A stretch of DNA of 64,000 nucleotides from Apostichopus japonicus (taxonomy: Eukaryota; Echinodermata; Holothuroidea; Aspidochirotida; Stichopodidae), in NCBI RefSeq assembly GCF_037975245.1, contig NC_092567.1, positions 15,679,876-15,743,875 of the forward strand. The letters are read 5' to 3'. Within the stretch, counting starts at the first letter, position 1. The number at the start of each line of letters is the position of its first letter. Both the position numbers and the translations under genes were made by a program. Below are positions 637-61,977 of this stretch, piece by piece. The notes beneath the pieces were generated by a model, which was given only the letters and a program-made list of their open reading frames with translations, searched no databases and was not told where the DNA came from.

Positions 637-1116
637 CTTTAACTTTAATGAAAAATTTTCCTCTGGCGTTATGTTTGTAAGAACAGGAGAAATTCCTTTC
701 ACTATGTTGATTACCCTGCATTTCAACATTTAGAGACCATAACGTATCGTTGCAACTTCCCATTGAAATTCCGTCTATTGGCAGTTTTGGTACCGAGGTC
801 CTGAAAATATTCTTCGTATTTTCTTCCCAAGTAATGTGTGCAGTTGTCTTCTTTACTGGACAAACTAGACATACTAGTGTGTTAAGCTTTACGTGGCATT
901 CAATCTCATCTCCTGTAAACTCTGCAGTCGATGGACATATAATCAAATCTTGTAGAAAGGCTGGAAGTGCAAAAATAACATCTGATTGTAATTAAACGCA
1001 ATAAGTTGTTGTTCAGGATATGTAATTTGAAAATAAATAGTTAAATCCATACCTCTTTCAAATAGGAAAAGTAAGCCCAAGATGTTATACACAGTGGAGT
1101 ACCTGAAAGCTGCCAT
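637..1116 (-). CDS. Ig-like receptor, first two exons (rest off the left edge)
   Basis: Exon 1 is 1053-1116: an ATG at 1116 starts a hydrophobic signal peptide ([20 protein letters not shown]) and ends in phase 1 at an AG|GTATGG donor. Exon 2 is 637-960 (324 nt, phase 1 to 1) between a TTCCAG acceptor and an AAAG|GTAAGT donor. It encodes one cysteine-rich Ig-like domain with CPST, CLVCP, an ITW tryptophan and a late NFSC. It is the paralogue of the first two exons of the complete receptor at 48794-60057, differing at roughly a fifth of residues, mostly in the second half of the domain. The remaining exons, by analogy a membrane segment and a pseudokinase, should lie left of base 1. Positions 1-636 are intron. 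The gene points away from the + strand receptor starting at 5992, so the two are head to head. Confidence 0.82.
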
Positions 1117-5991: not shown

Positions 5992-8900
5992 ATGACGTCA
6001 AATTATCTTTTGGGAGTTGCATTTTTCATTGCAACTGCTTTACCGACTAGCTATTCAGGTAAGTATTGAATTATTTGCTTTATCTTAACCGTAACTATAT
6101 GACACATTAGTTTATCTTAAAATAAAGGATGTTACTATACGACAGTAAAAGATCATCTTACTCACTTTAGAGTATAAATCTTTATATGATACTGGTTTTT
6201 AAATATAATAATGATGCTTATTAAGAATGACATTAAAATTTCTATAAATGGTCTTTTTAACAAAGCGTCGTCACTTAGATGTCCAGAAGAACTGTTTATT
6301 GAAGAAGGGAGCATCCACGTAGTCAACTGTTCACTCACCACGTCTACACTTACAGAGCTATACTGGTTCGTAGGAAATAGTACGAGCTCATTACCCATCG
6401 CGCAATTGGTATCTGGTGTCCAACACGTTTGGCCAGTGCAACACTACGATATCAGCGACGATGGTTCACTTATCATCAAGAGCGTTGGTCGTAATCAGAC
6501 AGGTCCTTACACCATCTTGCACTTCATGGAAGATGACGAGAAGGAACATGACACCGTGTATATAAATCTTATAGGTAATGATCATGTTATACAAGTAAAT
6601 ATGAAAGTCAGATCAATTTGATAAGATAAGATCTAGAAAACTGTTAGAATCAAACATCGAACATATTACATACCCGCTTACAATCATTTATCGAATAATC
6701 ATTCGAAAGTGACTGTTTTCCCATTACCTCTTGTTTGAAATTATTAGTGGCGATTCTTTTACTGACATGAATCAATGTAGTTGTTCCTCTGGCTTTGTAA
6801 ATACTCTACTTTCTGAAATTCAGCGAGCGGGTAGGATAATGAATCTTGTATATCACAAGATGCTTGTTTAATCTTCCTTATTCGATTTTGTTTTATTCCA
6901 TTAGAAGAGCCGTGTCCAATGATAGACCAGTGTACCTCATGTGAAGATTGTCTAATACAAGCCACTGAAGATCTAATATTTCTCACGTGCACTATCACCA
7001 GTCCAACCACAGAGAAAATATCACCAATCTGGACTTACAATAATGGAAGTATAATTCAAGGTCGAATACACGAAGAACGACTGTCGGATAATTCGTGGAA
7101 TGTCAGTGTCAGTTTGCACATTCAAAGCTTGAAATGTGGATTGACAGTTTTGCTATGCTCCAGTTCCATAAGAGGACATGATAAAACAGTAAGGGATGCT
7201 AGAGTAAATGTAACGTTTGGTGAGTGGTTTTTGTTGTATTGTTAGAATTTAGGTTATTATGTATAACCATTACTCAGACCCATTTATTTTATGTCATGTA
7301 ATGTTATGGTCAAACCTGATATTCTTACTTTCAGTGAAGTCAAAAACAGGAAGTGTCAAACTATGTCAAAGAGACATTCCAAACGGAATTTATTTGATTA
7401 CCAACACATATACGCGTTTAGTCAATTTCGACAAAAATAACTGGGATACTTTTTCGAACTATAATCTCGTGTCTAACCTATAGTTAATGCTGCCCTACAT
7501 AATGATGAACCTGATATGAAAGTTTACTTTTAGATTGAACATAATTTGTGCATGAAAAATCAGCTCAAAGCACCGTATTGCGTTCGTAACGTACATACAT
7601 GAGCACAGAGTTTAATTAGATGTAATAAGCAAGAAAGTGTCATAACGCATTCTGAATTAAGTTGTGTTAAGATTTCAGGTGTTTTGCAGTTTCATTAATT
7701 AGATGTGTAATTGGTCCAAGTTACGGGACAGCTAAAAAATCATCATTAAAATAATATCTTTCTTGTTTCAAATTTTCATTTAGATTTGTTTATATGTTTG
7801 TCTTTCTGTCACTGTCATTTACATTATATTTACTTATGAACCTATGCGTATGTTTTTTTCATTTCATATTAATAGTGTCATGTGATGATTTACAAATACC
7901 TGATGATGGAAATGATCCGATTCTCATTGTGACGTGCGTCATTGCAATCGTGATAATTCTTACTACGACTGTACTTATTGCACTGTATTGCGGTAAGTTA
8001 CTTTCTATTTAACAGTTTTACCATTCTATCAGAAAAAGAGAAAGAAAAATCGCAATGCTCACATTGCACAGAAAATAGATAAGCCAAAAAATATTAAGTG
8101 CAACAGGAGATGTATCTACATAAAGGCCCATGTTGCAGTTTACATTTATTCACATGTTGTATAATATCTTCCCGATCCCCTCTGGTAGGTCTACATGCAA
8201 AGTTGGTCGATAATTATAACAGTTCACTTTCTTACATTGTGCACATATTTTGTCATACAAAGGTTAGGGCATGTAGCACTAATACGTTGAAGATAAATGT
8301 TTTACAGGAGGTAATTACAAAATGCGAAGGCATCAAGTCATGAAATTCATGAAAGCATAATTCCTCCCAACAAGAAATAACTTTGGTAATAATAATTTTG
8401 GTAATGCTGTCGTTGGTTCAAGTTCATTTGCACAGTTTTCAAGTATACATACATTTCGTGGATAATGATTGATAAATCCAAGTATAAGAGACCTATTGTA
8501 ACGTTTACATTGCAGTAGATATCCACAGATTTAAGAATTGTGTATAGCCTCAGGTTTGCCCGATTGGTCATTGAATTTCAAAGCATGTTGTTACCTGCTA
8601 ACTTGCAATTTATGTAGTCAACCTTTCATCAAAAGATATGGTAGCTTTAACATATTGTTCTAATACACCTTTTGAAAAACCAAAAAATCAAGTGATCAAG
8701 TGATCAATGACAAACGTCACAATGAGACGCTTGAAGAATGGCAGCAATGAGTGATACACGAGTAACGAGAAAAAGCCGATCCAACAAGATCCTAAGAATA
8801 AGACCTTTAAAAGTGATCGAGATATTAACCAAATGGTAACAATCCTTAGCCTGCAATTGATGTGCTTGAAAGGAGGCTTAATGCGTTCAAAATGTTAAGA

Positions 8901-9004
8901 TATTAAATTACGTAAGATTGACAGTTTTTGTGATAAAAAGTACACCATTTCGATTTTTGATACTTTTGACTAATATGTGGCCAAAGATTACCTGAATTCT
9001 TTAT

Positions 9005-9043
<39 letters not shown>

Positions 9044-10192
9044 TTATTCTTGTCCATTTATTGATATCAACGAAGACTGTGTGATATGTTGTGAGTTCCT
9101 ATTTAATTTATCGAATTTCAAACAGGTCGCAGTTGCAATAGAAAGACGAAGAATGAAGATGAAGATGGAAAGGAAGATGAAGATGTAAGTTTGCTGAAAG
9201 CAAAGCTTTTCATTCATGTTTTAATTACAGCAATTACATTTAAGTTTTTCTAATTTGCATGTAAGCTCCAAGATTTTCATCACTGTGCAAGTAGCTTATT
9301 AGTTACACTATGGATGATACAAAATGAGCGATAGTAGCAGTTGTTACTCGTCGTTTGCATGTATCAATGTACAATACTATGATTGAAGCAAATGCTAGAA
9401 CAGAGGAAAATATCTCCACAATACAGATATCGCAAATAATTTACATTCGTGAGAGGAAAAAAATGTTAGAAAACTACTAATAAATACTGCAAACTGTTAA
9501 AATTGTTTCATAATCGACGGTGGTGACTACGATGTTCTGTTATGTCGATCTGTCTTTCACATTGAGTACGTTTGTTATTAATCTCACCTTTTTTGCAGCT
9601 TAAAGAAATCGAACCCTTGATCGACCGGTTCTTGAAGACACAGTTACAAATTGTAACTCCTAAAGGAGAACGGAAAGAGATGTCCGCTGCATCTTTCTTC
9701 AATTCTGATGTCGAATGGAAGAACACGAAGCGTATAATTTTTTTAGGGGATATTTTAACTGAAGAAACGCCGATTGTTAAACAGGCAAACTCGATGTGCT
9801 CTAAGGAGAACTACGATGAAACCCTTTTTATTGTTGATTTAAAGGAACTTAATTTTAAAGCAGATTTTGCTAAAGAAATTCATAAACAATTACCTCCAAA
9901 CAGCAAGTATTCTCTAGGTGAAGTAAATGACTTGTTATCGAGCAAGTGTTGGTTGATATTAGATGGTGGTGGTAAACCGTTGGAGCTACCGAAGCCTCCT
10001 GATTTGGAAGAAGATGTCGATGTAGATAAACTCACAACATTTGATATGTTATGTAAAAATGAGAATGATTTGCTAAGAGTTTGGGTTACTTCTTTACCTT
10101 CAGATCCTAGTAATTATTTCAAAGCTTATACGAAAATATATTTTCCGAAATCTAATGAAAATGAAACACAGAGCTCAATAACAAATCTTTGA
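5992..10192 (+). CDS. Ig-TM receptor with decayed NACHT domain
   Basis: Six exons with matching phases: 5992-6058, 6266-6574, 6905-7219, 7876-7992, 9126-9184 and 9599-10192, encoding 486 residues. Exon 1 encodes a signal peptide (MTSNYLLGVAFFIATALPTS). Exon 2 is an Ig-like domain (RCPE, VNCS, LYWF, DDGSLII, but QTGPYTILH where YxC is expected). Exon 3 is a second Ig-like domain with many Cys (about residues 131-230). Exon 4 is the membrane segment (about 246-268). Exon 5 is acidic (NEDEDGKEDED). Exon 6 (290-486) aligns with the NACHT exon of the 30094-42289 gene: KRIIFLGD, VKQ, EIHKQLPP, WLILDG, RVWVTSLPSD. The Walker A site reads GDILTEETP where the paralogue has GDIGCGKTS, so the Gly-Lys-Thr is gone. 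The Walker B region reads LILDGGGKP. The domain stops soon after the sensor region, with no winged-helix part. Binding of ATP is unlikely; a decoy or dominant-negative adaptor role is inference. Gene identity is strong; exon borders rest on splice consensus and phase. Confidence 0.84.
9008..9040. repeat. (AT)n microsatellite
   Basis: An uninterrupted AT dinucleotide tract of about 33 bp lies in intron 4 of the + strand receptor, roughly 90 bp upstream of its acidic exon 5. Confidence 0.95.
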
Positions 10193-13583: not shown

Positions 13584-15558
13584 TTTATCATAAATCATAT
13601 ATGTTAATGACGCATAGCTTTCGTTGGTGTTGTTGTTCCTATGTTCAAAAGATGGCGAAAAGGGGATCCGTACCCAGTTTAAAGTAAAGCAATAGAGTAC
13701 AAAATAAAAGTAAAAGAAAAGGCAAAAAAAATTAATTCCTATGATAACAATTACATCACACTGCTTCACTTTTGATATAGACTCTTTAAGGTTGAAATGT
13801 ACTATCTCGAAAACTGCATACTTTTAAGAATTGAATGAAAATTTTGAAGCAGGAAGCGCAGATTCAGTCCTTCAACATTAACATTTCAAAATCAGTCAAG
13901 TTATTTTCGTGGTATTACAGTAAGGGCTTGCTTGTGACAATGAAAAAAAAAGGTAGAAGAGCTCATTTATAAGTATATACAGCTTATTTCGCGGACATAA
14001 ATGTCAGAACTAATGCCAGCATTAAATAATAAATTTGCTCAAACAAAAGTCTACCGGGTAAGTTTCAGACGAGACCAAAAAATATTAAATGTATTCTGTT
14101 GGTGTAACACTTGCTGCAGGAGCTGCATGAAAGGTATTACAGATTAGTGAATAATAAGATACAATAGAATTAATCATATTACTTTGACATTTAGCTTGAA
14201 CGGTTAACCGCATTGAAAAGTGACAAGTCAGAGAGTAAGTGATAAACGGGGTGTTCTTTCTCAACAACCTCTTTTGTTAAAAAAAAAAAAAACGAACTTA
14301 AATTATATCCTTGTTTCGATTCAGACAATATTTTGCCACGAGTGGTCCTATTATTCGGTATGGAACATTAATCTTAACATACGATTGTTTTAAAAGCAAA
14401 AGTACTTGGCTGACGTTAGTTTCCAAGTATCTCTCAAAGTACAAGTTTAGCAATACTATTTATAGGCTCTTTCATAGTCAACTAATATATATCTATGAGT
14501 ACGCAATAAAGTACTTACTTTCCAATTGAAAGATGGATAGACTACATGAACTTTATCATACATAATATGATTACTTATGATAAACCTTACCTGCCCATAT
14601 CGGTGTATGTATTCCTAAAGCCTTAAGTCCATCAAACTGAAGTGATGCCATCTTGATCCCAGAATGCTTGGCTTACATAATTTGAAGAACAGTTCGATGA
14701 ATTTCTTAACTGAACAAAATAACTAAATTTACTTGCGCTTTAAATGCAAACTACGTCTTTCTGCAATATTGTGTGAATCTTAAAGATTGATATGTGATTG
14801 GTGAGTACGTTGCCATTAGTATTCTCGTTCTTTGAGAAAATTAAGAAATAAACATTGCGTTTGTTTCTCACCCGACTCCGATCAAATAAATCCGATAAGG
14901 TTACAAGTTTTGCGTTATCTAGTACCTTTTTAAAACAATAACAACATTGCAAGATATGCAACTTACATCTTAAAAAAAAAACAGACAGATGGGGGACAAG
15001 GGATATATTTCGTTGATCAAATTTGTTAATTGATATTTAACACATTTTCCCCGACAGAATCGAAAGTATCTTTTCGGAAATGTTGCTGCATTAAGAACTG
15101 TAGCAAACCTACCGAATATAAGGCAATCAAAATAAGGTTGCAAGTAAGCACACATATCTTAAATTAAATTGTCAAATACGTCTACAAAATAGCTTATATT
15201 AATAAATCCTTTGAAATGTCTTTCATATCATTTTAGCCACTATTTTAGTAGCAAATCTAAAAGACCAACATTTTTTACAAATGACAAAGTGGGGTTGGTT
15301 GATTAATTAGTGATGATATATTAGAAACACAAAACATCGCGAAAACCTAAATGCTGCATTAAATCATACGGTTCTTTAAGTAAAAAAACAAGAAAATCAA
15401 ACAACCAATTAACCTTTTTGCTTGTGTGTACTTTGTTACCAGGTGTATTCCATTATTTTTTTTTAATTCGTTGACAATGAAACAATGACTGTCCAGTTCC
15501 ACAGAAACTCTATAACTCTTACACTCAACATATTAGCAGAACTTTCATTTCTTTTTCA
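13584..15558. other. Intergenic, no gene seen
   Basis: AT-rich sequence with a short poly-A run near 14281. Scattered short frames on both strands show no family motif and no paired splice sites. Confidence 0.5.
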
Positions 15559-16033
15559 ATGGCAGACTTTAGGTTCTTCACTGTATACAACATACTGGGT
15601 TTATTTTGTCTACATGTTCGAAGTTTGGAGATTTAACTACCTATTTACATGTTGCATATCTTCATCTAACAGACCACGGTGTTTCAATCATATATTATAT
15701 TTTGTTTCCTTACAGCTTCCCTACAAGAGTAGATTTAAGATGTCCCGTGACGATCGAGTTTACAGGAGCTGAAACTGAATGCGTTGTACAGGGAAACACA
15801 AAAGTTTGTCTGGTTTTTCCAGTAAAAAAGAGGGTTGCCAACATAACTGGGAAAGAAACTACTGCCACTAGTTTTAGGACGTCGGTACGAACACGGCCTA
15901 TGGATTGAATTTAAGAAGGACCGTGTCACGACTCGTTTTGGTCTTTAATGGTTGGAATACAGAGTGTCAATCAAATGAAAGAATCTTCTCTTGCACTTAC
16001 AAAGTCATGCCAAACACGAACTTCAATTAAAAG
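15559..16033 (+). pseudogene. Inverted, broken copy of the Ig receptor's first two exons
   Basis: An ATG at 15559 opens a peptide clearly related to the signal peptides of the flanking receptors (MADFRFFTVYNILGLF), but the exon-1 donor has decayed from AG|GTATG to AGTTTG. The second exon (15716-16033) keeps its TTACAG acceptor and AAAAG|GTAAGT donor and still reads FTGAETECVVQGNTKVCLV then PVKK-VANIT-KETT, matching the Ig domain of the 48794-60057 receptor. It has a one-base deletion plus an in-frame stop near its start, and TGA and TAA stops at about 15906-15914. No membrane or kinase exons follow. It lies on the opposite strand to the two related genes, so the duplicate was inverted. Expression as a receptor is not possible as it stands. 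Confidence 0.82.
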
Positions 16034-23844: not shown

Positions 23845-25325
23845 TCGTCTTTATCTTAGGATACAAGAAACCTCTGGAATAAAGTAATACCACATCTTGT
23901 TCATACTTTTTCTTATGAAAAGATCAGACTTTAAACTTTTCATTATAAAATTGATTATATCAAACTGCAATATTGTGGAAAGTTGTAAAGTCTTTCAATT
24001 GGTGTTCATAGAGTGCACTGTTTAACTCATCCCCGTAAGGTATGCAGTTTGCGTTATTAAACAGAATGTATATAGTGAGCTCAATGGAAATGTAAAAGTA
24101 ATTGTACGGGATTATGTAATTCTTGTGTGGAAGTAGATGCTAGGTAGACATGCAACATTGTCTTAGCTGGATTGGTCTCGTAATACTTGGTTAAAGTAGG
24201 TTCAATGAGGAATGGACAGCTTTCTGGTGAGATAAGAATAGAGGATAGCTAGCCTGCTCAGTTGGAGAGGGGCGTGAAAGTAACTCTTGGAGGAGACAGT
24301 TAGCAGTGTATTGTAATGTGGCGAATATCGCCTGTAGCTCGGTGGAGATGTTACTATCGTTACCCCTGGGGGAAATTACTTGGTAGGCCTAGGATGCCTA
24401 GCTCCAACAAGCACCACGCAAATTAAATGATTAAAAAGTTAAGATGATTTTAACATGATTTATTCTCTCCGGGATACAAATAATTGTTCAATTAAAAGCT
24501 GTAAAATTACTTGAAGATACTGCATGATTGGAAACAATTAATATGTATAAATTATTTGGCATCTTATACTGATCGTGAGAACTGGATGATTAAGTTCCAG
24601 GACTAATTTGCCTCTATAAAAAACCGGCTGATATCTGATCTGATCCATGATTGGTTCAAATATTACCTACTACTGTAAATGAACCAATCATGAGTAAGAA
24701 AGAAAACAACACGTGGTCCTAATTTATTCCTATGATTTTCTCTGTCTGAAAATACTGGCTCCTAAACTAAACGTCTGAAAATGGACCGAACAATTTCTAA
24801 TGTATTTCTTTGTTCGTACACCGTGGGAATTAACGAGGGGAGGCTCGAAGGTCAAAAGGTTAAAGGGTTAAAGACCTTGCAGGTGTTGGATAGGAACTTA
24901 AAGGGGCTAGAGTATCACTTTATGACAGTATTTCTATTGCAGAAGGATTATGCAATATTTCAACAGTGTATGAGAGTGTGCCATAGTTTTTACCCTGCAA
25001 GATAAGATCTCAAATATCTCTTGGAAGAAATATACCAGGTTCATTGTGATTATCTGTGGATATGGCTCTGTTGGTACTGATTGAACCAACGACACGTAAC
25101 TTAAACTTACAATCGACTAAACAAATAAGGGTAACACCCTAGTACAACTGAACAAGTAACCTTTTATTATATAAATATAAAAAAGCACTATACGACTAGT
25201 GCGTACATAACTCTCTAATGTTATTAGAGAATTACTAAACCTTGCAGGTTACGTTATTATTGATATAGAGGGAAATTCTCACCGGACTTGTTTTTTTCCT
25301 TTTTGTGTTTGCAAATAACTACGAG
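23845..25325. other. Region upstream of the transporter exon, no coding exon found
   Basis: The transporter exon at 25326 lacks its first membrane helices, so earlier exons should lie upstream, but none could be recognised here. A 74-codon frame at 24781-25005 is not hydrophobic and lacks family features. Confidence 0.45.
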
Positions 25326-26151
25326 GGAGCGAAGCACATTTAAAACTGCTGCAGTGCCCACTGACCCAATATTGCTCTGGCTCGGACCTGTTTTTCTGTT
25401 CGGTACTTTTTCTTGGTTATCACAAATCACGGTTTCGTTGTCTGTCTTCAGCATTGGCCCAGGCAACTCCGTAGCACTGACCTTCACCGTTACAATATTT
25501 TCCGTCATCTTTAGCGTCATATTTCTGAAAAGAGGATTCCAGGTCAAAGATTTTATATGCGCAATCTGTTCCACTGGTGGAGTGGCTTTAATAGCCATTA
25601 CAATCGATCAAGAAGAGTTGGTTATAGCCCAGTTTACCATACCGGTACCATACGGTATCATCTCGGCCCTCCTCGGAGCGATGACCTTCGCTGCCAGTTT
25701 CATCATTGGAAATCACCTAGCTTCATATGACAGTTCACACTCCATCGTAAATGTTCTCTCCTACGCATGTCAGTATTCTTTAGTTGCCTTGGTTCTGTGT
25801 ACATTGTTCAATGGATGGTCGATCCCCGAGACAACCCTGGATGTCCTCATTTTGACATCCACGGGTCTGACCACTTTTGGAGGAGTCTTATTCAGTTACC
25901 TTGCACTCGACAGTGAAAACCCCACAACCGTGTCAGTAATAATGACGTCACAGGTAATATTTAACTACGTTGGCCAATTCATATTCTTCGAGTATCGTTT
26001 TCACTGGGAGATACTTGCCGGGTCAATTCTGATTGTCGTATCGTGTATTGGAGTCCTGCTACGAGGCGAGGGCGAAGAGCATGAAAATAATGATAATGAA
26101 ACAAAATCTGACGATGGCCAACAGAACGAGCATCAACCAATTTTAGAATAA
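25326..26151 (+). CDS. SLC35G/EamA-type membrane transporter, 3' exon
   Basis: This is an open frame of about 275 codons ending in TAA at 26149, rich in hydrophobic helices. It shows the EamA (drug/metabolite transporter) pattern: a helix with ITVSLSVFSIGPGNSVALTF, then IFSVIFLKRGFQVKD and later VSVIMTSQVIFNYVGQFIFF. The second EamA-like half ends with IVVSCIGVLL, followed by an acidic tail. About seven or eight membrane helices are visible; SLC35G-type proteins usually have ten in about 350-400 residues, so the first pair is missing. The exon appears to start after an acceptor ACGAG| at 25325 (phase 2) behind a pyrimidine-rich run, so upstream exons are expected. Substrate is unknown; SLC35G members are orphan transporters. 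It could also be a truncated duplicate. It sits between the two receptor clusters with no evident functional link. Confidence 0.78.
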
Positions 26152-30093: not shown

Positions 30094-33000
30094 TCAGTTG
30101 TTATCAATAAACATAAGAATTCTTTTTTTCCTACCTGCATCGTTTTTATTTGATGATTTGCGAAAATCCCTCAATTTCTGCTCATCTGTGCTCACATATT
30201 TAGCAACACAAAGTTCTTGTATGAACTGGTGGCGACACCTAAAGCCATAACTAGTATTCGTGCTGTCCTTATCAAATTTACCTTCACCTGAATTAGGACA
30301 AATTTTCAGAATGCCGCACAACAAACTGATATCTCTTTTCCCTTCTTTTAGCTGCTCTATGGATAATGTATTCTCTTTTAGAAATAATCTGCCTATCATT
30401 AGTTCCATACTTTCAATGGCTGTAGCTGTTAGGATATGTTTCGTGACCACAACATGGCGTAGATAGAGACACTTTACGAGTCCTTTAATGATTGATGGAA
30501 AGGAAGTAAGATCGATACCGACAGTATGCTTGTTCATGATGCCATATTTGCTAGACACAAGAAGTTGAATAACAATCCCCATAAGAAGAGCATCTTCATC
30601 AAGTTTCAATAAATCATTTTTTTCAAGAATTGACCAAACTGAACGGCTTATAACATTAACATCATCATTACCATGTGGCTCTACCTCTGTTCCTCTGCTG
30701 AGTTCTTGGAAATTTTTAATTGGAAACTGAACTTGTTCCTTTAACGTTTTGTAGTAGATACACATTTGTTTTATATACGACTTTAAATCATCTTTTTCAA
30801 ATGATAAAAAGTTAACGACAGCGAATGAGTCACGGAACTGAGAAGGAAAACAGGGTCTCGAAGTCAACCAAATTCTTACATTATTATTGACTTCAGCAAT
30901 TTGAATAAACTTTTGAAACGTCAAATAACTTTGCTCACCACTTTCCTTGCGACCAAGTTTTGAATTTAAATCTGAAAATTCGTTACTGCCATCAAATATC
31001 AACAGACATCTTTCATTTTTAATAATGAACTCTATGTTTTCAATTTTGCAATCTTCTGGTAGCTGCTTTGAAATTTCCTCTGCCATATTTCCATTCAGAT
31101 TTGTATTTTGTAGGTTGAGGAAAAATAAAAATATTTCATCAGTTTTCATCTGCGAAAATAACAATGATACCTGCTTGACAAAAGAAGTCTTGCCACATCC
31201 AATATCTCCGACGAACAAAACACGTCTGACTGTTTTGCTCTTATCTGACTGAAAGAAAGAATAGGTAGACATTTGCTCCGTTTTTCCATCAGGCCATGTG
31301 ATAAGTACTTGCATCTCAGCGTAGAGGTTAGTATTTGAGATCAATTGGTCGTGTTGGATGGTCTTCTTTTCTCCGTCAGTGGCAAGAAAGTATTCTGGCC
31401 AAGGTAACGGTATCGGGCAGATATTTTGGTTATAAGCCTCCATTAGTGATGTCTTACCTAGGAAATAAAATGACGAGGTGGTGATGCTTATTACTGATGT
31501 GAGGAAGCTCCTTACTGTAAAACTCAAAATACTCTTAATTTTCTTCCCAAATAATTTGTATATAGGCTTGTGGATAGACTTGCAATATTACGTAATTTAT
31601 TTTTCCGAAGTTTAGTTCACGGTATTCTGTAAGCAAATTACATCTTCTCAATAAACTATTAAGTTACTTTTGCAAATGAATTTTCACGGTTGTTAGGTTA
31701 TGATAAAATCAAGAAGGAAATAAAAGGATTGAAGAAAATGTCACAAAGATGCTTGTTTACCAGGATGAAAACCTTTCTCTTCTGTATTCTGTTAACAAGA
31801 ATGTAAAATATAGGTTGTTATAGACAGGAAGGCTGGTACTACATTAGTATTTAACGTTGAACTTATATTTGTCTGATGAACTAAACGAAACATGTTGAAA
31901 AACTTATATGAGATGGACTGAAATCTGACGAAATATGTTGATTTTGTATTAAATATATTTGCCAACGAAAAAAGTTTGACTGATTGAATAAAATACATCA
32001 CCTGGTTACTTCCAGAGTCTTTAGCGCACCGAGCTAATGAAAAAAATATATATATAATAAACATTCTCTTCAAAATATGACAGCTTGGAATATCTCCTCG
32101 ACTTTTCCTCAAATTCGTACCTAAAAATAGTTAATTTAATAGCTGCTTAATATTTACGTACGTTTTTTGATAGACTTGCAATATTACGTAATTTATTTTT
32201 CCGAATTTTAGTCAACGATTTTCATTTAACTATTAAGTTACTTTTCCAATGAACTTTTACTCTTGTTAGGGAATGATATTATCAGGGAAAAAATGAAAGA
32301 TTGAAGGAAATGTAACAAAAGATGTTTATTTACCAGGATGTAAACCTTTCTCTTCTGTATTCTGTTAACAACAATGTATAATATAGGATGTTATAAACAG
32401 GTATATCTTATCACTTTTAAAAATATAGAAGGCTAGTACTTAATTTGTGTTTAACGTATAACCTATATTTTTCGGATGAACTAAACGACACATGTTGAAA
32501 AACTTAAATGAGATGGACTGAGTTCTGACAAAATATGTTGATTTTGTATTAAATATACCTGTCAACGAATAAGGTTTGACTGATTGAATAAAATACACCA
32601 CCTGGTTACTTCCAGAGTCTTTAGCGCTCCGAGCTAAGGAAAACAAAAATATATATAATAAACATTCTTTTCAAAATATGAATGCTTGGAATATCTCCTC
32701 GACTTTTCATCAAATTCGTACCTAAAAATAGTTAATTAAATAGCTGCTTAATTTTTACGTACGTTTGTTGATAGACTTGCAATATTACGTAATTTATTTT
32801 TCCGAATTGAAGTCAACGATTTTCGGTTAACTATTAAGTTACTTTTCCAATGACCTTTTACTCTTGTTAGGTAATGATATTATCAGGGAAAAAAGTGAAA
32901 AGATTGAAGGAAATGTAACAAAAGATGTTTATTTACCAGGATGTAAACCGTTCTCTTCTGTATTATGTTAACAACAATGTATAATATAGGTTGTTATAGA

Positions 33001-36000
33001 CAGGTATATCTAATCATTTTTAAAAATATAGAAGGCTAGTACTTAATTTGTGTTTAACGTATAACCTATATTTTTCGGATGAACTAAACGAAACATGTTG
33101 AAAAACTAAAATGAGATGGACTTAGTTCTGACAAAATATGTTGATTTTGTATTAAATATACCTGCCAACGAATAAAGTTTGACTGATTGAATAAAATACA
33201 TCACCTGGTTACTTCCAGATTCTTTAGCGCTCCGAGCTAATGACAAAAAGATGTAATAAACGTTCTTTTCAAAATATGACTGCTTGGAATATCTCCTCGA
33301 CTTTTCCTTAAATTCGTACCTAAAAATAGTTCATTAAATAGCTGCTTAACTTTTACGTACGTTTGTTGATAGACTTGCAATATTACGTAATTTATTTTTC
33401 CGAATTTTAGTCAACGATTTTCATTTAACTATTAAGTTACTTTTCCAATGAATTTTTACTCTTGTTAGGTAATGATATTATCAGGGAAAAAATGAAAGAT
33501 TGAAGGAAATGTAACAAAAGATGTTTATTTACCAGGATGTAAACCTTTCTCTTCTGTATTCTGTTAACAACAATGTATAATATAGGATGTTATAAACAGG
33601 TATATCTTATCACTTTTAAAAATATAGAAGGCTGGTACTTAATTTGTGTTTAACGTATAACCTATATTTTTCGGATGAACTAAACGACACATGTTGAAAA
33701 ACTTAAATGAGATGGACTGAGTTCTGACAAAATATGTTGATTTTGTATTAAATATACCTGCCAACGAATAAGGTTTGACTGATTGAATAAAATACACCAC
33801 CTGGTTACTTCCAGAGTCTTTAGCGCTCCGAGCTAAGGAAAACAAAAATATATATAATAAACATTCTTTTCAAAATATGAATGCTTGGAATATCTCCTCG
33901 ACTTTTCATCAAATTCGTACCTAAAAATAGTTAATTAAATAGCTGCTTAATTTTTACGTACGTTTGTTGATAGACTTGCAATATTACGTAATTTATTTTT
34001 CCGAATTGAAGTCAACGATTTTCGGTTAACTATTAAGTTACTTTTCCAATGACCTTTTACTCTTGTTAGGTAATGATATTATCAGGGAAAAAAGTGAAAA
34101 GATTGAAGGAAATGTAACAAAAGATGTTTATTTACCAGGATGTAAACCTTTCTCTTCTGTATTCTGTTAACAGCAATGTATAATATAGGATGTTATAAAC
34201 AGGTATATCTTATCACTTTTAAAAATATAGAAGGCTGGTACTTAATTTGTATTTAACGTATAACCTATATTTTTCGGATGAACTAAGAGACACATGTTGA
34301 AAATCTTAAATGAGATGGACTGAGTTCTGACGTAATATGTTGATTTTGTATTAAATATACCTGCCAACGAATAAGGTTTGACTGATTGAATAAAAATACA
34401 TCACCTGGTTACTTCCAGATTCTTTAGCGCTCAGAGCTAATGAAAAAAATGTAATAAACGTTCTTTTCAAAACATGACTGCTTGGAATATCTCCTCGACT
34501 TTTCATCAAATTCGTATCTAAAAATAGTTCATTAAATAGCTGCTTAATTTTTACGTACGTTTGTTGATAGACTTGCAATATTACGTAATTTATTTTTCCA
34601 AATTGAAGTCAACGATTTTCAGTTAACTATTAAGTTACTTTCCAATGAACTTTTACTCTTGTTAGGTAATGATATTATTAGGGAAAAAATGAAAAGATTG
34701 AAGGAAATGTAACAAAAGATGTTTATTTACCAGGATGTAAACCTTTCTCTTCTGTATTCTGTTAACAACAATGTATAATATAGGTTGTTATAGACAGGTA
34801 TATCTAATCATTTTTAAAAATATAGAAGGCTAGTACTTAATTTGTATTTAACGTATAACCTATATTTTTCGGATGAACTAAACGAAACATGTTGAAAAAC
34901 TAAAATGAGATGGACTTAGTTCTGACAAAATATGTTGATTTTGTATTAAATATACCTGCCAACGAATAAAGTTTTACTGATTGAAAAAATACATCACCTG
35001 GTTACTTCCAGATTCTTTAGCGCTCCGAGCTAATGACAAAAAGATGTAATAAACGTTCTTTTCAAAATATGACTGCTTGGAATATCTCCTCGACTTTTCC
35101 TTAAATTCGTACCTAAAAATAGTTCATTAAATAGCTGCTTAACTTTTACGTACGTTTGTTGATAGACTTGCAATATTACGTAATTTATTGTTCCGAATTT
35201 TAGTCAACGATTTTCATTTAACTATTAAGTTACTTTTCCAATGAACTTTTACTCTTGTTAGGTAATGATATTATCAGGGAAAAAATGAAAGATTGAAGGA
35301 AATGTAACAAAAGATGTTTATTTACCAGGATGTAAACCTTTCTCTTCTGTATTCTGTTAACAGCAATGTATAATATAGGATGTTATAAACAGGTATATCT
35401 TATCACTTTTAAAAATATAGAAGGCTGGTACTTAATTTGTGTTTAACGTAAAACCTATATTTTTCGGATGAACTAAACGACACATGTTGAAAAACTTAAA
35501 TGAGATGGACTGAGTTCTGACGAAATATGTTGATTTTGTATTAAATATACCTGCCAACGAATAAAGTTTGACTGATTGAAAAAATACATCACCTGGTTAC
35601 TTCCAGATTCTTTAGCGCTCCGAGCTAATGACAAAAAAATGTAATAAACGTTTTTTTTCAAAATATGACAGCTTGGAATATCTCCTCGACTTTTCCTTAA
35701 ATTCGTACCTAAAAATAGTTCATTAAATAGCTGCTTAACTTTTACGTACGTTTGTTGATAGACTTGCAATATTACGTAATTTATTGTTCCGAATTTTAGT
35801 CAACGATTTTCATTTAACTATTAAGTTACTTTTCCAATGAACTTTTACTCTTGTTAGGTAATGATGTTATCAGGGAAAAAATGAAAAGATTGAAGGAAAT
35901 GTAACAAAAGATGTTTATTTACCAGGATGTAAACCTTTCTCTTCTGTATTCTGTTAACAACAATGTATAATATAGGTTGTTATAGACAGGTATATCTAAT

Positions 36001-39000
36001 CACTTTTAAAAATATAGAAGGCTAGTACTTAATTTGTATTTAACGTATAACCTATATTTTTCGGATGAACTAAACGACACATGTTGAAAAACTAAAATGA
36101 GATGGATTTAGTTCTGACAAAATATGTTGATTTTGTATTAAATATACCTGCCAACGAATAAAGTTTGACTGATTGAATAAAATACATCACCTGGTTACTT
36201 CCAGATTCTTTAGCTCTTCGAGCTAACATAAAAAATATAATAAACATTCTTTTCAAAATATGACAGCTTGGAATATCTTCCGACTTTTCCTCAAATTCGT
36301 ACTTAAAAATAGTTCATTAAATAGCTGCTTAATTTTTACCTGGTTACTTCCAGATTCTCTAACGCTCCGAGCTAATGAAAAATAATCATAATAATATCAT
36401 TAAAAAACATCCCATTCATAATATGATTGCTTGGAAGACATTTTGAAGGTTTTCTGTGTTTAAATTATCCCAAGATTTCATACTTACTTGGGTTCCAATT
36501 GCGTAATAAACAACCATAATTGATACCGAGATATACTCATTAGGCGATCACATACATGTACATATTTCGTATCTATTAAAGGAAAAGATTTCGTATCAAT
36601 TGTATTTATTTGGTTTGCTAAACACAATTCCTATCATCATTTAGTTTATGAGTTTAGAAATAATGCAGTCTGGAAGTTCTTTTATTTCTGAAATTATGCA
36701 TTAACAGTGATAATTTTCGTTGATCAAAGTATGATATAATAGAACACAACTGGCTAAATGTTAACTTGTTTCAACATATTGACGTTATGAAACATACCAG
36801 GTTGACTAGCCCAAGCGCGATAAAACCCAATAACAAGAATGATGGCTAGAATTCCCGCTAACCACGCCAGTACTGAATAAAGTCCTGAAAGATAAAATAT
36901 TAGAAACTTTGCTGCCTCTTTTTACGTATTCATGGTATGCTACGTGGTATACATTTTGGGTAAGTATTAGTATAAGGGTTACCATATATCAGAATTCCCC
37001 GGATATGCTCTCATTTGGATTTATTAAGTTAGCGCCTGGGTGGACTTACAACCTTAAAACAATCTGGAATCTTTGTTAGACAACTTTGTAAGAATTAAAA
37101 CGTTTCTGTACCGAGCAGATCAATATCAGTTTTCCCACACGAAGAGGAGAAAGGCCTCCCCTAGCCCACCTTGTCCAACAGGCCGTGACAAATTCCATCA
37201 GATATAATTTGGTAACCATTAATGCGTGCTGATTCAGCCCTTACTTGCGTTTCATCCTACATGTCAAAATCTATGCTTGTTGGTCACAATTACTGTTTGA
37301 GGGATTATGTACGGCATCGACCATCAGACGTACATTAAGAAAAGTACAGAGAGACACATAAAATGCTTTATTTCTATTAGTCCATTTGAATTGTCCCGTG
37401 TGATTAATTCCTCACCGTATTTTCCTTAAAATACAGATAAAATGCAAGTCCGATACATCATCCGATACAAACATATGGAAGTACATTCTAATGAATGTTT
37501 AATGGAATATTTAAACAAAGTATTTATTGAAGAAACTTGTAAATAAACTATACGCACCCACATACTTGCACACAAAAGAAAGAAATGAAGCAACAACTTC
37601 AATTCTAACGGTGACCGCTTGTTTGACCATTTCCCCATCTGAAGAAACATGTTCAACAATGTATACGCCTTCCTGTTCACGACGAAGTTGGTTTATAATA
37701 AGTGAGCCGTCTTCTGTAATTCTGTAAATTTTACAGTTCGCCACTGACATTGTCCCATCTTCAATTTGTGCGACTGGGCTCGGGTGGGTTCCTTTGTACC
37801 ATTTCACGTTTCTCCCCACCAGGTTACAGTTGATGATTGCTGTACGTCCTTCTTCGTATGAAACAATGTCTCGACAAGTATGGAAGGAAGCTTGATGAGC
37901 AATAGAAAAGTAAAATGGTCGATTACAACTTAATTGGTATGGATTGGAAATAATATGCACCGTGGAGGCCTTTGAAGTATTAAAGTTTAAACCCACTCAG
38001 GTCAGTTAATATTGATTCGTAATAGAGTTTACAGCAATGAGAATCTTTTCAATTGAATCTCTCCGTCTGAGCTCAATCCTGTGTTGTGCCAAATAAACTT
38101 AACAATAGCACTCTCACTTTGCAATGTGTCGTCATTATAATTGATATTAATTTTAAACCCAAAACAAGTTTAAGGACATAAAAAGCGTTACCTCTTATAT
38201 AAACGTCGACCATTCTTGTTTGTTTTTCTCCATCTGGGGTTATATATTCAATATAATAGGATCCTTCTTGTTCATGACGAAGATGGTTTATAGTAAAAGA
38301 AACGTCTTCAGTAAATGCGTAAATGTTATTATCTGTCATTTGTATAGTTTCTTCTTCAGTTGTTGCAACAGGGTCTTGAGGAGCAGTTTCCCTGTACCAA
38401 TTGTTGATCAATCCACACCGGATCATGGCTTCACTTCCTTCCTTAGCTGAAACCGTTTTTGGACAATTAAGGTTCGAAGCTGTAAAGATATTTTCTAAAC
38501 CAGAAATAGAAACTGAGAGATCGTATGTGATTTCGCCGATATTGTGCCAAGTGAGTCAAATTATAATTACAATTATTCAAAAATAAAACGATCTTGAAGT
38601 TGTTTTCAAGGTAAAGGAAACGTAGAAGCTAGTTTATTTATTTAAAGCGTGTTCATCAAAATACTTTAAGCAGTCCTTTAGGAAATATACATTCCTGTCG
38701 CTTAAGTTGCTTTCTTTGCCAAAAGTTAATTTGAAAATTGAGTAGTTTATAAACGCGTGTTGGCAATACAGCATATGAACTGAAATAATTATAAAGTTTA
38801 CGCCTTTGTGCAGACACAAAACGAATTTTGTTTTATATCATTTCAATCAACTGATAAAATTTGAATAGTGTTAATACAATGAAGAAAGTAAGTAATGTTG
38901 GCAACAACTCGAACCATATATAGTCGACGTTAAACACAATTCATTTGGATGAAATATCCACCGTCCATTGTTGCTATTAGGTTTGTTTTAATCCGCAGTT

Positions 39001-42000
39001 GATTGTCAGTGCACTTCCTTCTACATCAGTTATTTCTTGTGGGCATTGGAAGGAGTAAGCTTTAACAGGGACACACATATATATATGTATCTATAGCTAT
39101 AAATAAAGCCTTTTATTGTATCAAAACCAAGTGGTACTATGTGTGAAATACAATGTATTTAATATACATTTCACTAGTATCTTTTCAGGCTAGCGATATA
39201 TATATGATATGATAGACTATATGTAAATGGTAAAGTATATGTCCCTTAAATTGTTATTCGTACAATACAGACATTCCCACGCATTAAAGGATTCATTCAA
39301 CAACAAATTCATCAAGACGACATTTTATCTCTCAAGGTAAAAACTAGCGTAATATTATTGATATATGGCAGAAGTACCTCTGAGTTTAAGAGCCAACGTA
39401 GATCTCTCTTTGGTTCCATCAGATTCAAGATGCTCTATAGTGTAGAACCATTCTTGTTCATGTTGGATATTCTTTATGACAAGAGACAAGTCTTCTTTTA
39501 TATCGTAAATATCTTGTCTCCCTATTAGTGTCGTTCCAATTATAGCTTCTGCAATTGGTTTCGTGTAAGGAGTGGTACCAAAATACCATTTACCGTTGGC
39601 CTTTCCTTCCATTCCACAGTTGATAATGACTTCACTACCTTTTTTTACTAACATATCCTCTCGACATTTGAATATGGCAGCTGTGCCGAGAAAAAAAGAA
39701 AACCAATGATGTCATTTATTTTCCTGTTGAATTGTAAGGAAGAACATCACATTAACACGAATCTCTACTTATTATTCGTTACCCTTAAAGGCTTGCAAAT
39801 TAAAACAGACGCTCTGTATGATTTAATTTGCATCATCATTCTGTCCGGCATATTACTTCTTCATAGCTTCATCACATTCAAATAAAAGTTTTTTTTTGTC
39901 TACATTAGAAATCGAGTAGACTGTCAACCGAAATATGCTTTTGAGTAAGTTATACTTATCTAACTTCTTTTTTATTAGAACAAGTCATTAAACAGAAGAG
40001 AAATGCGATTTCACTTTGTAATCAAAATTAAAGAATATAACACTTCTAAGCATAAGCAATATCAATTTTTAAGTCACAGTGAACTTGAATTTTGAATGAT
40101 CTATTACAAAACTAATGAACATAAATTTTCATCTCAGAGTGTCCCAATTGAGTAAAAACGTTAAAATGATGATAATACCCAAATATCCTCGAAGCATAAC
40201 CCCGCCGTTCGTTGCTATTATTGTGGTTAAAGGTGTCAAAAGATAGTAGATGTACCAATGAGATAACACGAATGATAGTAATAGAAAGTGTACGTAGTAC
40301 ATTGAACAACACCACGAGTATTAACCAAACGGATCTGATGCATAGCAAACTTCACACGCAGGTTTTTTTAGCAGCATGAACCAACGCGTTATTTCAGGAC
40401 AGCATGTAGCATAGGACACTAACATAACGGTCACTGACATGTACCATTTATACTTACTACACTACATTGTGTGTACTAAGCTATGGGTAGTGTACAATTG
40501 AGTCGGTACCTCACACAAGGACAACTCCACCGAGGAGAAAGCTCAAGCAAACAGTTACATTTGAAAGTTTTATGATTCCTTTATAACCTAACATGGAACA
40601 TATTTGATCAGACGGAAATATGTGTGAACCAGGACTTGAAACTTGTCTTAGCGTAGGCAGCTGAGATTACACTTACCTATCTAATTTCGTCTTTTTGAAC
40701 TAATATTCATTCGCCGGTTTACTATCCATTTTCTAAAAAAAAGGTCAGTTGACGAAACCACGGGCCAATCAGATTCGATCATTTTTAACAAATAGGAATG
40801 AACGACTATTACACAGAGTAAATTAGACAATACAACTAGCGTACATGGAGATTAAAGATCTACATCTTGCATTATGCGAGTGCCGCATTATCCTACTTGT
40901 GGTTGAACCGTACTAGAGTAGATACTACACCCAACTGCGGTTTACATTGCTGACATCGCATCACGTGTGATCGACTTACTCATGTCACAGATGGTGGCTT
41001 CGTTTGGAGTTAAAGCAGCACCGGACAGAGGTACAGACTTCTTTATGTGATTAGAGGTACATCATTATTTGTTGGGATACGATATTTGCTAAAAGGGACC
41101 CGCCTTGATAGAGGTCTAGTGCAAAAGTCGCCGGAACACGCACAATTTGAGGATGTTTTGTGTCTTTCCTTTTCATTGATACGAATGTGGTTAGACATTG
41201 GTAATCAAAACGGTGCCATGACCTGCAAGGAATGGGTACTCGTCTGATGACTTATCCTATGTGAATGGTAACATGTCTGTCTAGTAAGTTTGATATTCGT
41301 ACCATATAGACATGCCCACGCATTAAAGGGTTCATTCAACAACAAATTCACCAAGACGACATTTGATCTCTCAAGGTAAAGTCTGCGTGAAATAAAATGT
41401 ATTGCAAAAGTACCTCCTATTTGAAGAGCCAACGTTGATGTCGCTTTGGTTCCATCAGATTTAAGATGCTCAATTGTGTATGATCCTTCCTGTTTGTGTT
41501 GAACATTCTTTATAACAAGTGATGCATCTTCGTTTATGTCGTAAATATTGTAGTCCCGTATAAGTATTTTTCCATTCACAATTTCTGCGATGAGGCTGGA
41601 GTGGGGAGGGGTTCCGAAATACCATTTGCCATTGGCATTCTCTCCTAGTGAACAGTTGATACTGACTACACTTCCTCTTTGGACTAATACATCTTTTGGG
41701 CATTCCAAAGAAGTAACTATTCAGGTAAAAAGCACCAAAAGTGTAATTTATTACAGTTTTACAACATCAGTTAAATAAATTAAATACAAAACAAGATAAA
41801 TCAGCAAACATTTGTCTACAGCGATACCAGTCCCATTTGTTGTAACACATCACACAATTAACAAAAGTAAAAAAGAAAATACGGCTTTCCGGTTTATTTT
41901 ACATCGTTATTCCGTCCAAATTACTTCTCATATTTTTTTTCTAGACAATTTAACGAAAATGATTTTAGCAGGAAATCTTTTATTTCAACAAGCAGAAAGT

Positions 42001-42289
42001 TTACTTAATGACTAGTATATATTTTGAGAGAAAAAAACAAACAAAAGAAATATAGTCATATCACTTAATACCTGTTCCTTTTAGGAAGATATTTTAAGAA
42101 CCGAGCAAATATGAGGTGACCTTTATGACAATTTCAAGTATAAAATGTGTACATCATATCATATTAAATATAAATGTGTTTTAAATTTCATTTCCCTTTA
42201 GGTCTTAACTTATTTTACTATCAATAGTTACCCAATAAAGATAAGGCGAATATCATAATAGCTGTTGTTGCCAACTTGATGATGGACAT
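30094..42289 (-). CDS. Transmembrane Ig-NACHT receptor with mini-exon linker array
   Basis: Exons: signal peptide 42232-42289 (MSIIKLATTAIMIFALSLLG); Ig-like exons 41414-41716, 39378-39680, 38192-38479 and 37558-37890; membrane exon 36798-36884 (AWLAGILAIILVIGFY); A and C mini-exons in the repeat array; NACHT exon 31457-30094. All borders to the membrane exon are phase 1; only the last Ig donor (37558, GTGCGT) is doubtful. Each Ig domain has CP...INC, WYF or WYK, D-SL-I and QEG-Y but no YxC cysteine. The NACHT exon (453 residues) has an intact Walker A GDIGCGKTS (31183-31209), Walker B LLIFDGSNE (30979-31005), sensor-like WLTSRP, and a winged-helix motif RHQFIQELCVAKYVS. LRRs are absent. NACHT domains of NLRs oligomerise on ATP binding; here one would be tethered under a surface receptor. 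Total length is about 1051-1071 residues for 7-8 linker units. A possible donor at GATGCAG|GTAGGA near 30140 leaves room for other 3' exons. Confidence 0.83.
31540..36430 (-). repeat. Tandem ~598-bp array, each unit carrying two coding mini-exons
   Basis: Eight near-complete units plus a partial ninth, with A-to-A spacings of 593-604 bp (149 bp to the partial unit). Mini-exon A (32 nt, phase 1 to 0, AG acceptor, CAG|GTGATG or GTGGTG donor): 32002-32033, 32602-32633, 33205-33236, 33801-33832, 34405-34436, 34998-35029, 35593-35624, 36191-36222 and 36340-36371 (donor GTAAAA). Mini-exon C (28 nt, phase 0 to 1, AACAG acceptor, CCTG|GTAAAT donor): 31761-31788, 32334-32361, 32937-32964 (acceptor lost), 33533-33560, 34136-34163, 34731-34758, 35326-35353 and 35923-35950. 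One A plus C encodes ARSAKESGSNQNTEEKGLHP. Variants are confined to a few residues (RSAKD/E, RCAK, LSAK, RRAK). The array sits exactly between the membrane exon and the NACHT exon of the Ig-NACHT gene. Confidence 0.85.
39255..41716 (-). repeat. Tandem duplication of an Ig exon with its flanks
   Basis: The first two Ig exons (41414-41716 and 39378-39680) are both 303 nt and encode closely similar domains. The intron sequence just downstream is also shared: about 39255-39342 matches 41290-41380, including a CCCACGCATTAAAG block. The period is about 2036 bp. This is a recent exon duplication that added an extracellular domain. Confidence 0.75.
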
Positions 42290-60057: not shown

Positions 60058-61977
60058 TCCACCAGTAAATACTCAGAAATACATTAAATGAAATATCTAA
60101 TAACTATCCGTGCGCAGTCGACACTCACGCAAACGACATCATAAAGATTGGGCGTATCATTTTACAGGCAACTACAAGATAGAAAGTGAATGTAAGGCAA
60201 TACCCGAATGTTAACAAGTATCACTCGAACGATTGTTTCACTTTGTTTTGTGCGTGCTGCTTCGTGTTCAAGTTCATTTTATATATCAAGGGTACTGTGC
60301 AGTCGAGCCACTTTACACTCAATACGTTCGCTAAACGCAATCAGACGTAATTTTGTGAGGGTAAAAATCACAATGTGTAAGGTTAATTAATGCCTGTAAT
60401 TAGGTTCTGTATTTGAAGTTAGTTACCTGTATAACAATAAAACAAACATGACAATGTAACTTCAGTACATGCTTTTGTACTTCATCTACATTTTGTATAA
60501 TCAGATATGTTTGGTACAATGGAATTGTCAATAATCTGAAAAATGTCTTAATATAGATGTTAATTTATCATAATGATGCATTTACTTTGAACTTATCATT
60601 TTCAACACTTTTGTGAAACTTCCTCGTGTCCAAACCAACTAATCCTCCCTCTTCTCCAACTAAAGAGGAAGAAAAGGAAACCGATGCTATATTATTTTTA
60701 ATATTAAGGAAACCGTATCGTCACAAATCTGGATGACCGATACAGCATTACACAACCATGTACACGCGCAGATACATTTTGTGTTCGATGTATTTTCTTT
60801 TGGAGTACATTGATATATTATGTAAGTAATTCTTAGCGTACCACAGTAGCGGGGTATTGGACCAATAGTTAAAGTTTTCATTACGCACCACATTTTAATA
60901 GAATGAAGTCACATATATAAAATGTTTTAATGTTCCTTGATTGGAGATTTAAATCGTCAATATGCTGTTTTGAAGGTGTTAGAGGGTAGGCGGAAAGAAA
61001 TTTATCGATCGAGCGAGCAAAAAACAACAAACATAGCAAAGTGAGAAACATTACAAAGAACACAGTAACAACTGTAAATCTTAAAGTTTTGTACCAAAGT
61101 AAACACTGGATCGTGCTATAAATCAGTAGCATGTGCTATTAGGATTACAGTAAGAGGTGGGGATACGGTTACCCTCAACAAATCCAGGTTGATGCATTTG
61201 TTGGTATGACACATATCCTCAGTTCTTACTATAAACCTAATAGCACTTGCGACCGATTTATCCTATTTATCAACACGATTCAGTTTTTACTGTCGTACTA
61301 CACTTTAAGATTGGCAGTAGTAACTGTAATCTCTGTATGAATCAGTTGGATCCATGCTACTAACAATACGAGTACTCTGAACAGCGAATAACATGTCATG
61401 TTGAATCAGGGCTGGATTGTAGTTAGTATATATATTGGGAGTCACTTATGTAGTGACTTAAAAGTAATTCGAAAGAATGATATGTAAAAATATTCAAGGA
61501 TCAGTGGGACAATGTGGATGCAGAGTAGAGTTAAAGTCATCAACGTGTCCCAATTAAGTTAATATAGTCACGTAGACAGAATCATTTTAAAAAGATAGTA
61601 AATCTAATTAAAATATGAATTATTAGAAACAAAGGCAATATGATGGCAGATGCGCAACTAGGCCGGTGTCGCCAATAATATCCGTGACAAGCACCGAAAT
61701 AATAAACCGTCATTCCGCCGAAACCGGCAGTTGAAGCGACCATTATTTCTACTTAACGTGGAATCAGTAAACCTATAGTGCCCAATGCTTATCTAGATAT
61801 TCAGATGGCCCCTTTTATATTTAGAAATCGAATGAATACGGCAAGCCAAGAAATAACAAACGCCCCTAAGTATTGTTTAAGGCACCTCGGAATCACCAAA
61901 TTGGGAATGGCATATAGGAATGGCAGTCTGGTCAACTAAAAGGTAATCGATTAAATTGACAGTAAGTATAGCAGGAA

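Follow-up and report, generated by a model that had tools for sequence, protein, structure and literature searches.

Within a 64,000-nucleotide stretch of the Apostichopus japonicus genome (contig NC_092567.1, forward-strand positions 15,679,876 to 15,743,875; hereafter the window), the minus strand from 42289 to 30094, as read from its sequence, is a single gene. It encodes a predicted signal peptide, four V-type immunoglobulin-like (Ig) domains, one transmembrane segment and a NACHT domain, all in frame. The gene is real and correctly read; its architecture is known, and an array of spacer microexons between the transmembrane and NACHT exons is the unexpected feature. The product is a putative type I cell-surface pattern-recognition receptor of the A. 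japonicus Ig-transmembrane-NACHT kind, a reading to which a probability of about 0.6 is assigned.

One coding unit from signal peptide to NACHT domain

The seven-exon model ends exactly on a start codon and a stop codon (Table 1). It is open from ATG to TGA, codes for 911 residues, and the intron phase is 1 at every junction. A protein search returned three NCBI proteins of this gene, P0014 (isoform X25), P0015 (X24) and P0016 (X8; 20 sequences in its cluster), one sequence per cluster being read. All three lie on a contig of 26,897,543 bases, equal in length to the contig of the window. P0014 is identical to the 911-residue model save for 11 extra residues at the start of the third Ig domain (Ig3) and 40 spacer residues after the transmembrane segment. 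Since it matches the model apart from these two insertions, the gene is annotated as one unit. These proteins, and five from contig C12 described below, were taken as RefSeq models from their names ("isoform X.."); their source labels read only ncbi and uniref. P0001, which lies on a different contig (231,129 bases), likewise joins Ig domains, a transmembrane segment and NACHT.

The NACHT exon alone scored 47.7 bits against the Pfam NACHT profile (cut-off 26.7). The single Ig exons, Ig1 to Ig4, scored 31.6, 15.3, 18.2 and 23 bits against V-set (cut-off 26), so that one of the four passes alone. Full-length P0014 scored above both cut-offs, with 72.1 bits for V-set and 46.0 for NACHT. No LRR (leucine-rich repeat), CARD or other death-fold family was found on P0014 or P0016 (Pfam, E 0.01). 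The winged-helix motif lies at residues 917-924 of the 962 in P0014 and the protein ends 38 residues later. Among the features of the NLR family the protein thus has Walker A, Walker B and the winged helix, and it carries Ig domains and a transmembrane segment instead of the C-terminal LRR and the N-terminal death-fold effector. A fold model predicts a NACHT-HD1-winged-helix arrangement, as in vertebrate NLRC4, NOD2 and NLRP3. An AlphaFold model of P0001 (14 rows; predicted local distance difference test, pLDDT, 50) was left unused.

Twenty Ig domains were aligned, four plus one from the window genes, 13 from a paralogue (copy A; L044/L045, C7:15545001-15560000, minus strand) and two from C12. 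The B-strand Cys, C-strand Trp and F-strand Tyr, with strands named by analogy, are conserved in 20/20. The F-strand Cys (YxC) of the canonical B-F disulfide is absent from all 20 and an extra N-terminal Cys is present in all 20; the two remaining cysteines may form a disulfide with each other.

The initial annotation had described, in this order and in one gene, a signal peptide, four Ig exons and one transmembrane segment, followed by a NACHT exon whose Walker A, Walker B and winged-helix motifs are intact. The exon model and P0014 agree on the order, and the NACHT and Ig profile searches that it named as a check placed P0014 above both thresholds. That this is a single gene is supported by the intron phases, the NCBI proteins, the in-phase Ig exons of copy A (13/13), the transmembrane exons at both C12 loci with sufficient flank, and the genome-wide placement of Ig exons upstream of NACHT. 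It had named separate transcription units, or a start at the NACHT exon, as grounds for doubt; the annotated isoforms, themselves predictions, contradict both. Chance alignment of exons was considered and rejected on the evidence of the phases, the genome-wide Ig placement and the in-phase Ig exons of copy A. The microexon array and a dead Ig exon near 39.0 kb go beyond that earlier account.

The microexon array and the juxtamembrane spacer

The intron between the transmembrane and NACHT exons (36797 to 31458) contains paired microexons of 32 and 28 nucleotides (Table 1). The 32-nucleotide exon runs from phase 1 to 0 and the 28-nucleotide exon from phase 0 to 1. Splice sites (AG and GT) flank 9/9 of the former and 7/8 of the latter, one of which has AT for AG, giving 16/17 overall. 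The search tolerated substitutions only, and copies with insertions or deletions would escape it. P0014 and P0015 each contain two copies of the encoded repeat (ARSAKESGSNQNTEEKGLHP and variants) between transmembrane segment and NACHT, and P0016 contains five.

When eight units were aligned, no gaps fell in the exon columns, as against 1444 gapped pair-columns for the intron. Identity between the outlying first copy and the others is 88-94% for the exon, 47-52% for the 3' flank and 60-77% for the 5' flank; the last unit diverges from the rest by 5.5% in exons and 14.4% in introns. This pattern fits constraint on the microexon sequences, and the units are too alike and non-independent for a firm test of it.

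A genome search with one unit, which skips very common words, gave 13 matches, all on C7 (the contig of the window) at 15.618-15.717 Mb. Nine lie in the intron of the window gene and the remaining four, short and weak, lie near paralogues B (three) and C (one). Among these matches a tandem array of the unit is present in the window gene only. A transposon or plain minisatellite was rejected as an explanation of the 31.7-36.4 kb repeat on account of this confinement. The distance between transmembrane and NACHT exons is only 420 bases in copy A, 615 in B and 620 in C. In the C12 protein P0010 the juxtamembrane segment (RNDNS...LSEV) is present twice, which suggests that variation of the tether may be a wider habit. 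No microexon array or spliced spacer was found in the open-licence literature, among the matches listed. Within the literature examined, the microexon spacer, a paralogue with 13 Ig exons and pseudo-NACHT neighbours look new.

The array could be a splicing device that changes the tether, from two to about eight 20-residue units, per cell or after challenge, and so tunes co-oligomerisation, with the neighbouring pseudo-NACHT receptors partnering the ATPase-competent ones as dominant-negative forms or co-receptors. This proposal is a speculative one, to which low odds are given. The spliced spacer would be an unusual case in which genetic variation sets how far the sensor lies from the motor.

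The receptor family and neighbouring genes

A genome search with the window NACHT domain returned three long paralogues on C7 (82%, 86% and 81%, the last being copy B, split into two pieces). It also returned eight short relatives on the plus strand, one fragment, and relatives on C12, C21 and C8. Copy A has 13 Ig exons before its transmembrane and NACHT exons, each with in-phase AG and GT. The NACHT exon of copy B is frameshifted. That of copy C is open, but its signal peptide is a relic interrupted by a stop, and the fetched stretch contains no Ig exon.

The initial annotation had suggested searching the genome for further genes of this kind, and at least 68 related NACHT loci, counting those that are broken, were found (grouped by similarity at E 0.001; two of 52 window-NACHT rows, the second piece of copy B and one fragment, were left out). 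An Ig exon lies within 13 kb upstream on the same strand at 43 of the 68; a shifted-Ig control gave a mean of 8.9 and a maximum of 17 in 1000 trials. At eight loci there is a same-strand downstream Ig exon, 7.9-11.3 kb away, as is expected of the next tandem gene; none has one on the opposite strand and 19 have no Ig exon. This count left out Ig matches on contigs without a related NACHT (most on C16; all on C1, C4, C9, C11, C13, C15, C17-C20, C22 and C23). A second placement analysis used all 140 V-set rows and 156 NACHT rows (106 plus 50 of 52), counting only the nearest NACHT. Here 26/140 V-set matches lie within 20 kb of a NACHT match, at 20 distinct NACHT loci, and each of the 26 V-set matches is on the same strand and upstream. 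Random placement, with contigs besides C7, C12, C16 and C21 set to 30 Mb, gave a mean of 1.63 and a maximum of 6 (500 trials). Further large NACHT families, with open frames of about 510-540 residues, are present on C16 and at 3-12 Mb of C7, outside the window-NACHT matches.

At the C12 loci with sufficient flank (L047, L048) a transmembrane exon lies between the Ig and NACHT exons in 2/2. A scan of about 1.4 kb upstream at 28 loci gave two unconvincing transmembrane candidates (L020, L025); so short a stretch does not weigh against the family. With the Ig queries used, no Ig exon was seen at seven C12 loci (18.15-18.32 Mb). The NCBI C12 proteins P0002-P0004, P0009 and P0010 are 66-82% identical to the NACHT exon of one such locus and read as signal peptide, two ectodomain (Ig) units, transmembrane segment and NACHT. 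NACHT is above the Pfam cut-off in 5/5; a Pfam Ig match is present in P0009 only, the others being Ig by eye, and all five are 23-25% identical to P0001. The protein searches, which needed shared five-residue words and in one case scored the best 7994 candidates, returned A. japonicus matches only (1, 12 and 6).

A second, degenerate member had been proposed at 5992-10192 on the plus strand, and it is indeed present, with a signal peptide, two ectodomain exons, a transmembrane exon, a juxtamembrane exon and a short NACHT-like exon. The last gave no Pfam match at E 0.1 and is called NACHT by its similarity to the window NACHT (30.7% over 189 residues, E 6.5e-19). It is one (L027) of eight short NACHT-like exons (L025-L030, L032, L034; C7:15586352-15821741). 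All eight lack the Walker A lysine, so that any function of this part of the family is independent of ATP hydrolysis. A V-type Ig exon lies upstream on the same strand in 8/8. From the common exon start the frame ends after 162 to 203 residues; L034 lacks AG at the acceptor position of the others, and several copies show stops within the aligned stretch. The pairwise ratio of nonsynonymous to synonymous substitution (dN/dS) had a median of 0.84 over 28 pairs, none significant, and selection on these exons therefore cannot be asserted.

Along much of C7 15.54-15.82 Mb, long genes on the minus strand alternate with short ones on the plus strand, and both ends of the window contain duplicated pieces, 76-84% identical and 57.2-58.9 kb apart. 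These arrangements suggest that segmental duplication enlarged the cluster. Related DNA, 68-84% identical, is present at 560-991 (minus), 59533-60072 (minus) and about 15558-16033 (plus); the first two code for Cys-rich, Ig-like looking sequence with no significant Pfam match. An open frame at 25264-26151 (plus) for an EamA-type transporter (54.5 bits) is unrelated to the receptor.

Table 1. Coordinates of the receptor gene and of the short plus-strand gene in the window
Feature	Position	Strand	Support or remarks
Exon 1, start codon and predicted signal peptide MSIIKLATTAIMIFALSLL	42232..42289	-	Donor phase 1; hydropathy 2.14; identical in P0014
Ig exon 1 (V-set)	41414..41716	-	Pfam, exon model, P0014
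Ig exon 2	39378..39680	-	Pfam, exon model, P0014
Dead Ig exon remnant, two stop codons	38965..39054	-	Similarity
Ig exon 3	38192..38512	-	P0014 acceptor at 38512; seven-exon model took an inner acceptor, start 38479
Ig exon 4 and stalk residues	37558..37890	-	Weak donor GTGCGT; used in P0014
Transmembrane exon GLYSVLAWLAGILAIILVIGFYRAWASQP	36798..36884	-	Hydropathy 2.47, exon model, P0014
Paired microexons, nine of 32 nt and eight of 28 nt, units of ~597 bases	31761..36371	-	Pair codes 20-residue juxtamembrane repeat ARSAKESGSNQNTEEKGLHP
NACHT exon: Walker A GDIGCGKTS, Walker B LLIFDGSNE, WLTSRP, winged-helix motif RHQFIQEL, stop; no LRR	30094..31457	-	
Second gene, signal peptide exon	5992..6058	+	
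Second gene, V-type Ig exon	6266..6574	+	V-set 21.7 bits, below cut-off
Second gene, Cys-rich second ectodomain exon	6905..7219	+	Taken as Ig from position and likeness only; 0 Pfam families
Second gene, transmembrane exon	7876..7992	+	Read by eye
Second gene, charged juxtamembrane exon	9126..9184	+	Phase 1 to 0
Second gene, short pseudo-NACHT exon	9599..10192	+	Walker A GDILTEETP, without lysine

Proposed function, alternatives and known relatives

The sequence and the annotation together establish the anatomy of the receptor: one coding unit with a signal peptide, four Ig domains, a strong transmembrane segment, a variable spacer, and a nucleotide-binding domain, HD1 and winged helix with intact nucleotide motifs. 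The signalling steps are suggested by analogy with AjNLRC4, a known receptor of the same species, or by NLR biology. As in AjNLRC4, the Ig array would bind microbial surfaces outside the cell. Clustering of receptors would then gather NACHT modules beneath the membrane, where their ATP-dependent oligomerisation would recruit effectors; following AjNLRC4 these may include actin and Arp2/3, with engulfment and killing in the lysosome as the outcome and perhaps activation of caspases. The spacer would set reach and spacing, its length being the number of microexon pairs spliced in. As there is no LRR to keep the receptor shut, gating would have to come from the ADP/ATP state, Ig-mediated dimerisation and the spacer. 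That an extracellular ligand directly drives NACHT oligomerisation, as the initial annotation had supposed, is unproven. If NACHT motors do act beneath a receptor at the cell surface, the textbook division into Toll-type sensors on the surface and NLR inflammasomes in the cytosol does not hold universally, and the step from ligand to oligomer becomes open to study from outside the cell. The size and clustering of the family make the proposal testable.

Several observations weigh against this reading. The NCBI isoforms are predicted models. The weak Ig4 donor, the shortened Ig3 and the opposite topology reported for AjNLR-new, all described below, also count here. P0001 has GDIGCSKTS as its Walker A, with Ser for Gly. 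The Foldseek whole-chain TM-scores are modest (top rows 0.40-0.56, root-mean-square deviation 7-13). In copies B and C the transmembrane acceptor used in copy A and the window gene is lost, and an in-frame AG lies 12 nucleotides on. The evidence of selection is also mixed. The NACHT exons of the window gene and copy C gave a significant dN/dS of 0.50 (p 0.0024), but copy C itself looks broken upstream; the window gene with copy A (0.74) and copy A with copy C (0.75) were non-significant. The transmembrane exon (25 codons) gave 0.75-1.75, none significant, and no constraint was seen. Against copy A the Ig exons gave 0.54 (Ig1), 0.51 (Ig2) and 0.38 (Ig4), and for Ig3 an adverse 1.78, all being point estimates without a significance test.

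This weak or absent selection signal would suit an ordinary family member decaying into a pseudogene. So would the dead Ig remnant at 39 kb, an Ig3 that is four residues shorter than its copy-A counterpart before the Trp, and the weak Ig4 donor, where copy A has GTGAGC at the homologous position; the frameshifted NACHT of copy B and the upstream state of copy C point the same way. Decay is nevertheless judged unlikely, with the complete frame open, the nucleotide motifs intact, many isoforms annotated, AG and GT at nearly all microexons and every alignment gap of the array in its intron columns. Another possibility is a decoy or adhesion receptor in which NACHT serves as a scaffold and does not work as an ATPase. 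It draws on the short paralogues, all without the Walker A lysine, and on the report, in the part available, that AjNLRC4 binds caspase-1 via its Ig domains and not NACHT (PMC11932488); the window gene retains its nucleotide motifs, and this too is rather doubtful.

Readings that alter the gene or its topology fare worse. Two adjoining genes, an Ig-transmembrane receptor and a cytosolic NACHT protein, could have been misread as one, given the long transmembrane-NACHT intron and an early ATG in the NACHT exon (GKTSLMEAY). However, the NCBI isoforms and P0001 join the two parts, every junction phase fits, the corresponding distance in the three long paralogues is short, and the Ig-upstream placement holds genome-wide; the chance of a misreading is slight in the extreme. 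An inverted receptor with NACHT outside and Ig inside has been claimed for a relative, AjNLR-new (PMC13133943, in its available part). In P0014 the N-terminus reads as a signal peptide, called by hydropathy and position, and is followed by one strong transmembrane segment, called by hydropathy (2.47, with an overlapping flank at 427-445 of 1.74). A weak hydrophobic stretch at 798-816 (1.66), from about residue 290 of the NACHT exon, is a helix in the fold model. Arg and Lys number three in the 15 residues after the segment versus one in the 15 before, the segment being set by hydropathy and not by a dedicated topology predictor. A predictor that counts the signal peptide as a transmembrane segment would probably yield the published picture, and inversion is thought very improbable. 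The type I orientation, with Ig outside and NACHT inside, is retained as the more probable one.

The closest known relatives come from the same species, and the novelty implied by the initial annotation does not stand. AjNLRC4 (MN607598), reported in PLoS Pathogens in 2021, is described in the available part of that paper as a membrane receptor whose Ig domains lie outside and whose NACHT lies inside, with no LRR or CARD; the Ig domains bind microbes, and the intracellular part binds actin, with phagocytosis as the result (PMC8699970). It forms a caspase-1 complex through the Ig domains, not NACHT, according to the available part of a 2025 report in the same journal (PMC11932488). It thus shares with the window gene the species, the extracellular Ig domains, the transmembrane segment, NACHT, and the lack of LRR and CARD. 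It differs, in a comparison made by description only, in having two Ig domains and two transmembrane segments annotated and no microexon spacer in the available part of its published description. AjNLR-new (PIK48001.1; J. Biol. Chem. 2026), as far as its report was available, combines Ig, a transmembrane segment and NACHT in a protein of 1197 residues (PMC13133943). The second transmembrane segment of AjNLRC4 and the inverted topology of AjNLR-new may both have arisen from a signal peptide or a NACHT helix being counted as transmembrane; the first of the two segments of AjNLR-new is suspected to be a signal peptide, again by comparison of descriptions.

In another sea cucumber, Chiridota heheva, NLRs with an Ig V-set domain, said to be absent from sea urchin NLRs, are counted among six NLRs with other domains in the available part of that report (PMC8913654). 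The available parts of PMC9646362 (pearl oyster), PMC13228809 and PMC13428168 contain no Ig-NACHT fusion. As both AjNLRC4 and AjNLR-new combine Ig, transmembrane segment and NACHT, the basic architecture of the window gene is not new. Vertebrate NLRC4, NOD2 and NLRP3 are cytosolic, use the LRR as sensor and carry other N-terminal domains. They share the predicted NACHT-HD1-winged-helix fold with the A. japonicus receptor and differ from it in their cytosolic place, their LRR and their N-terminus.

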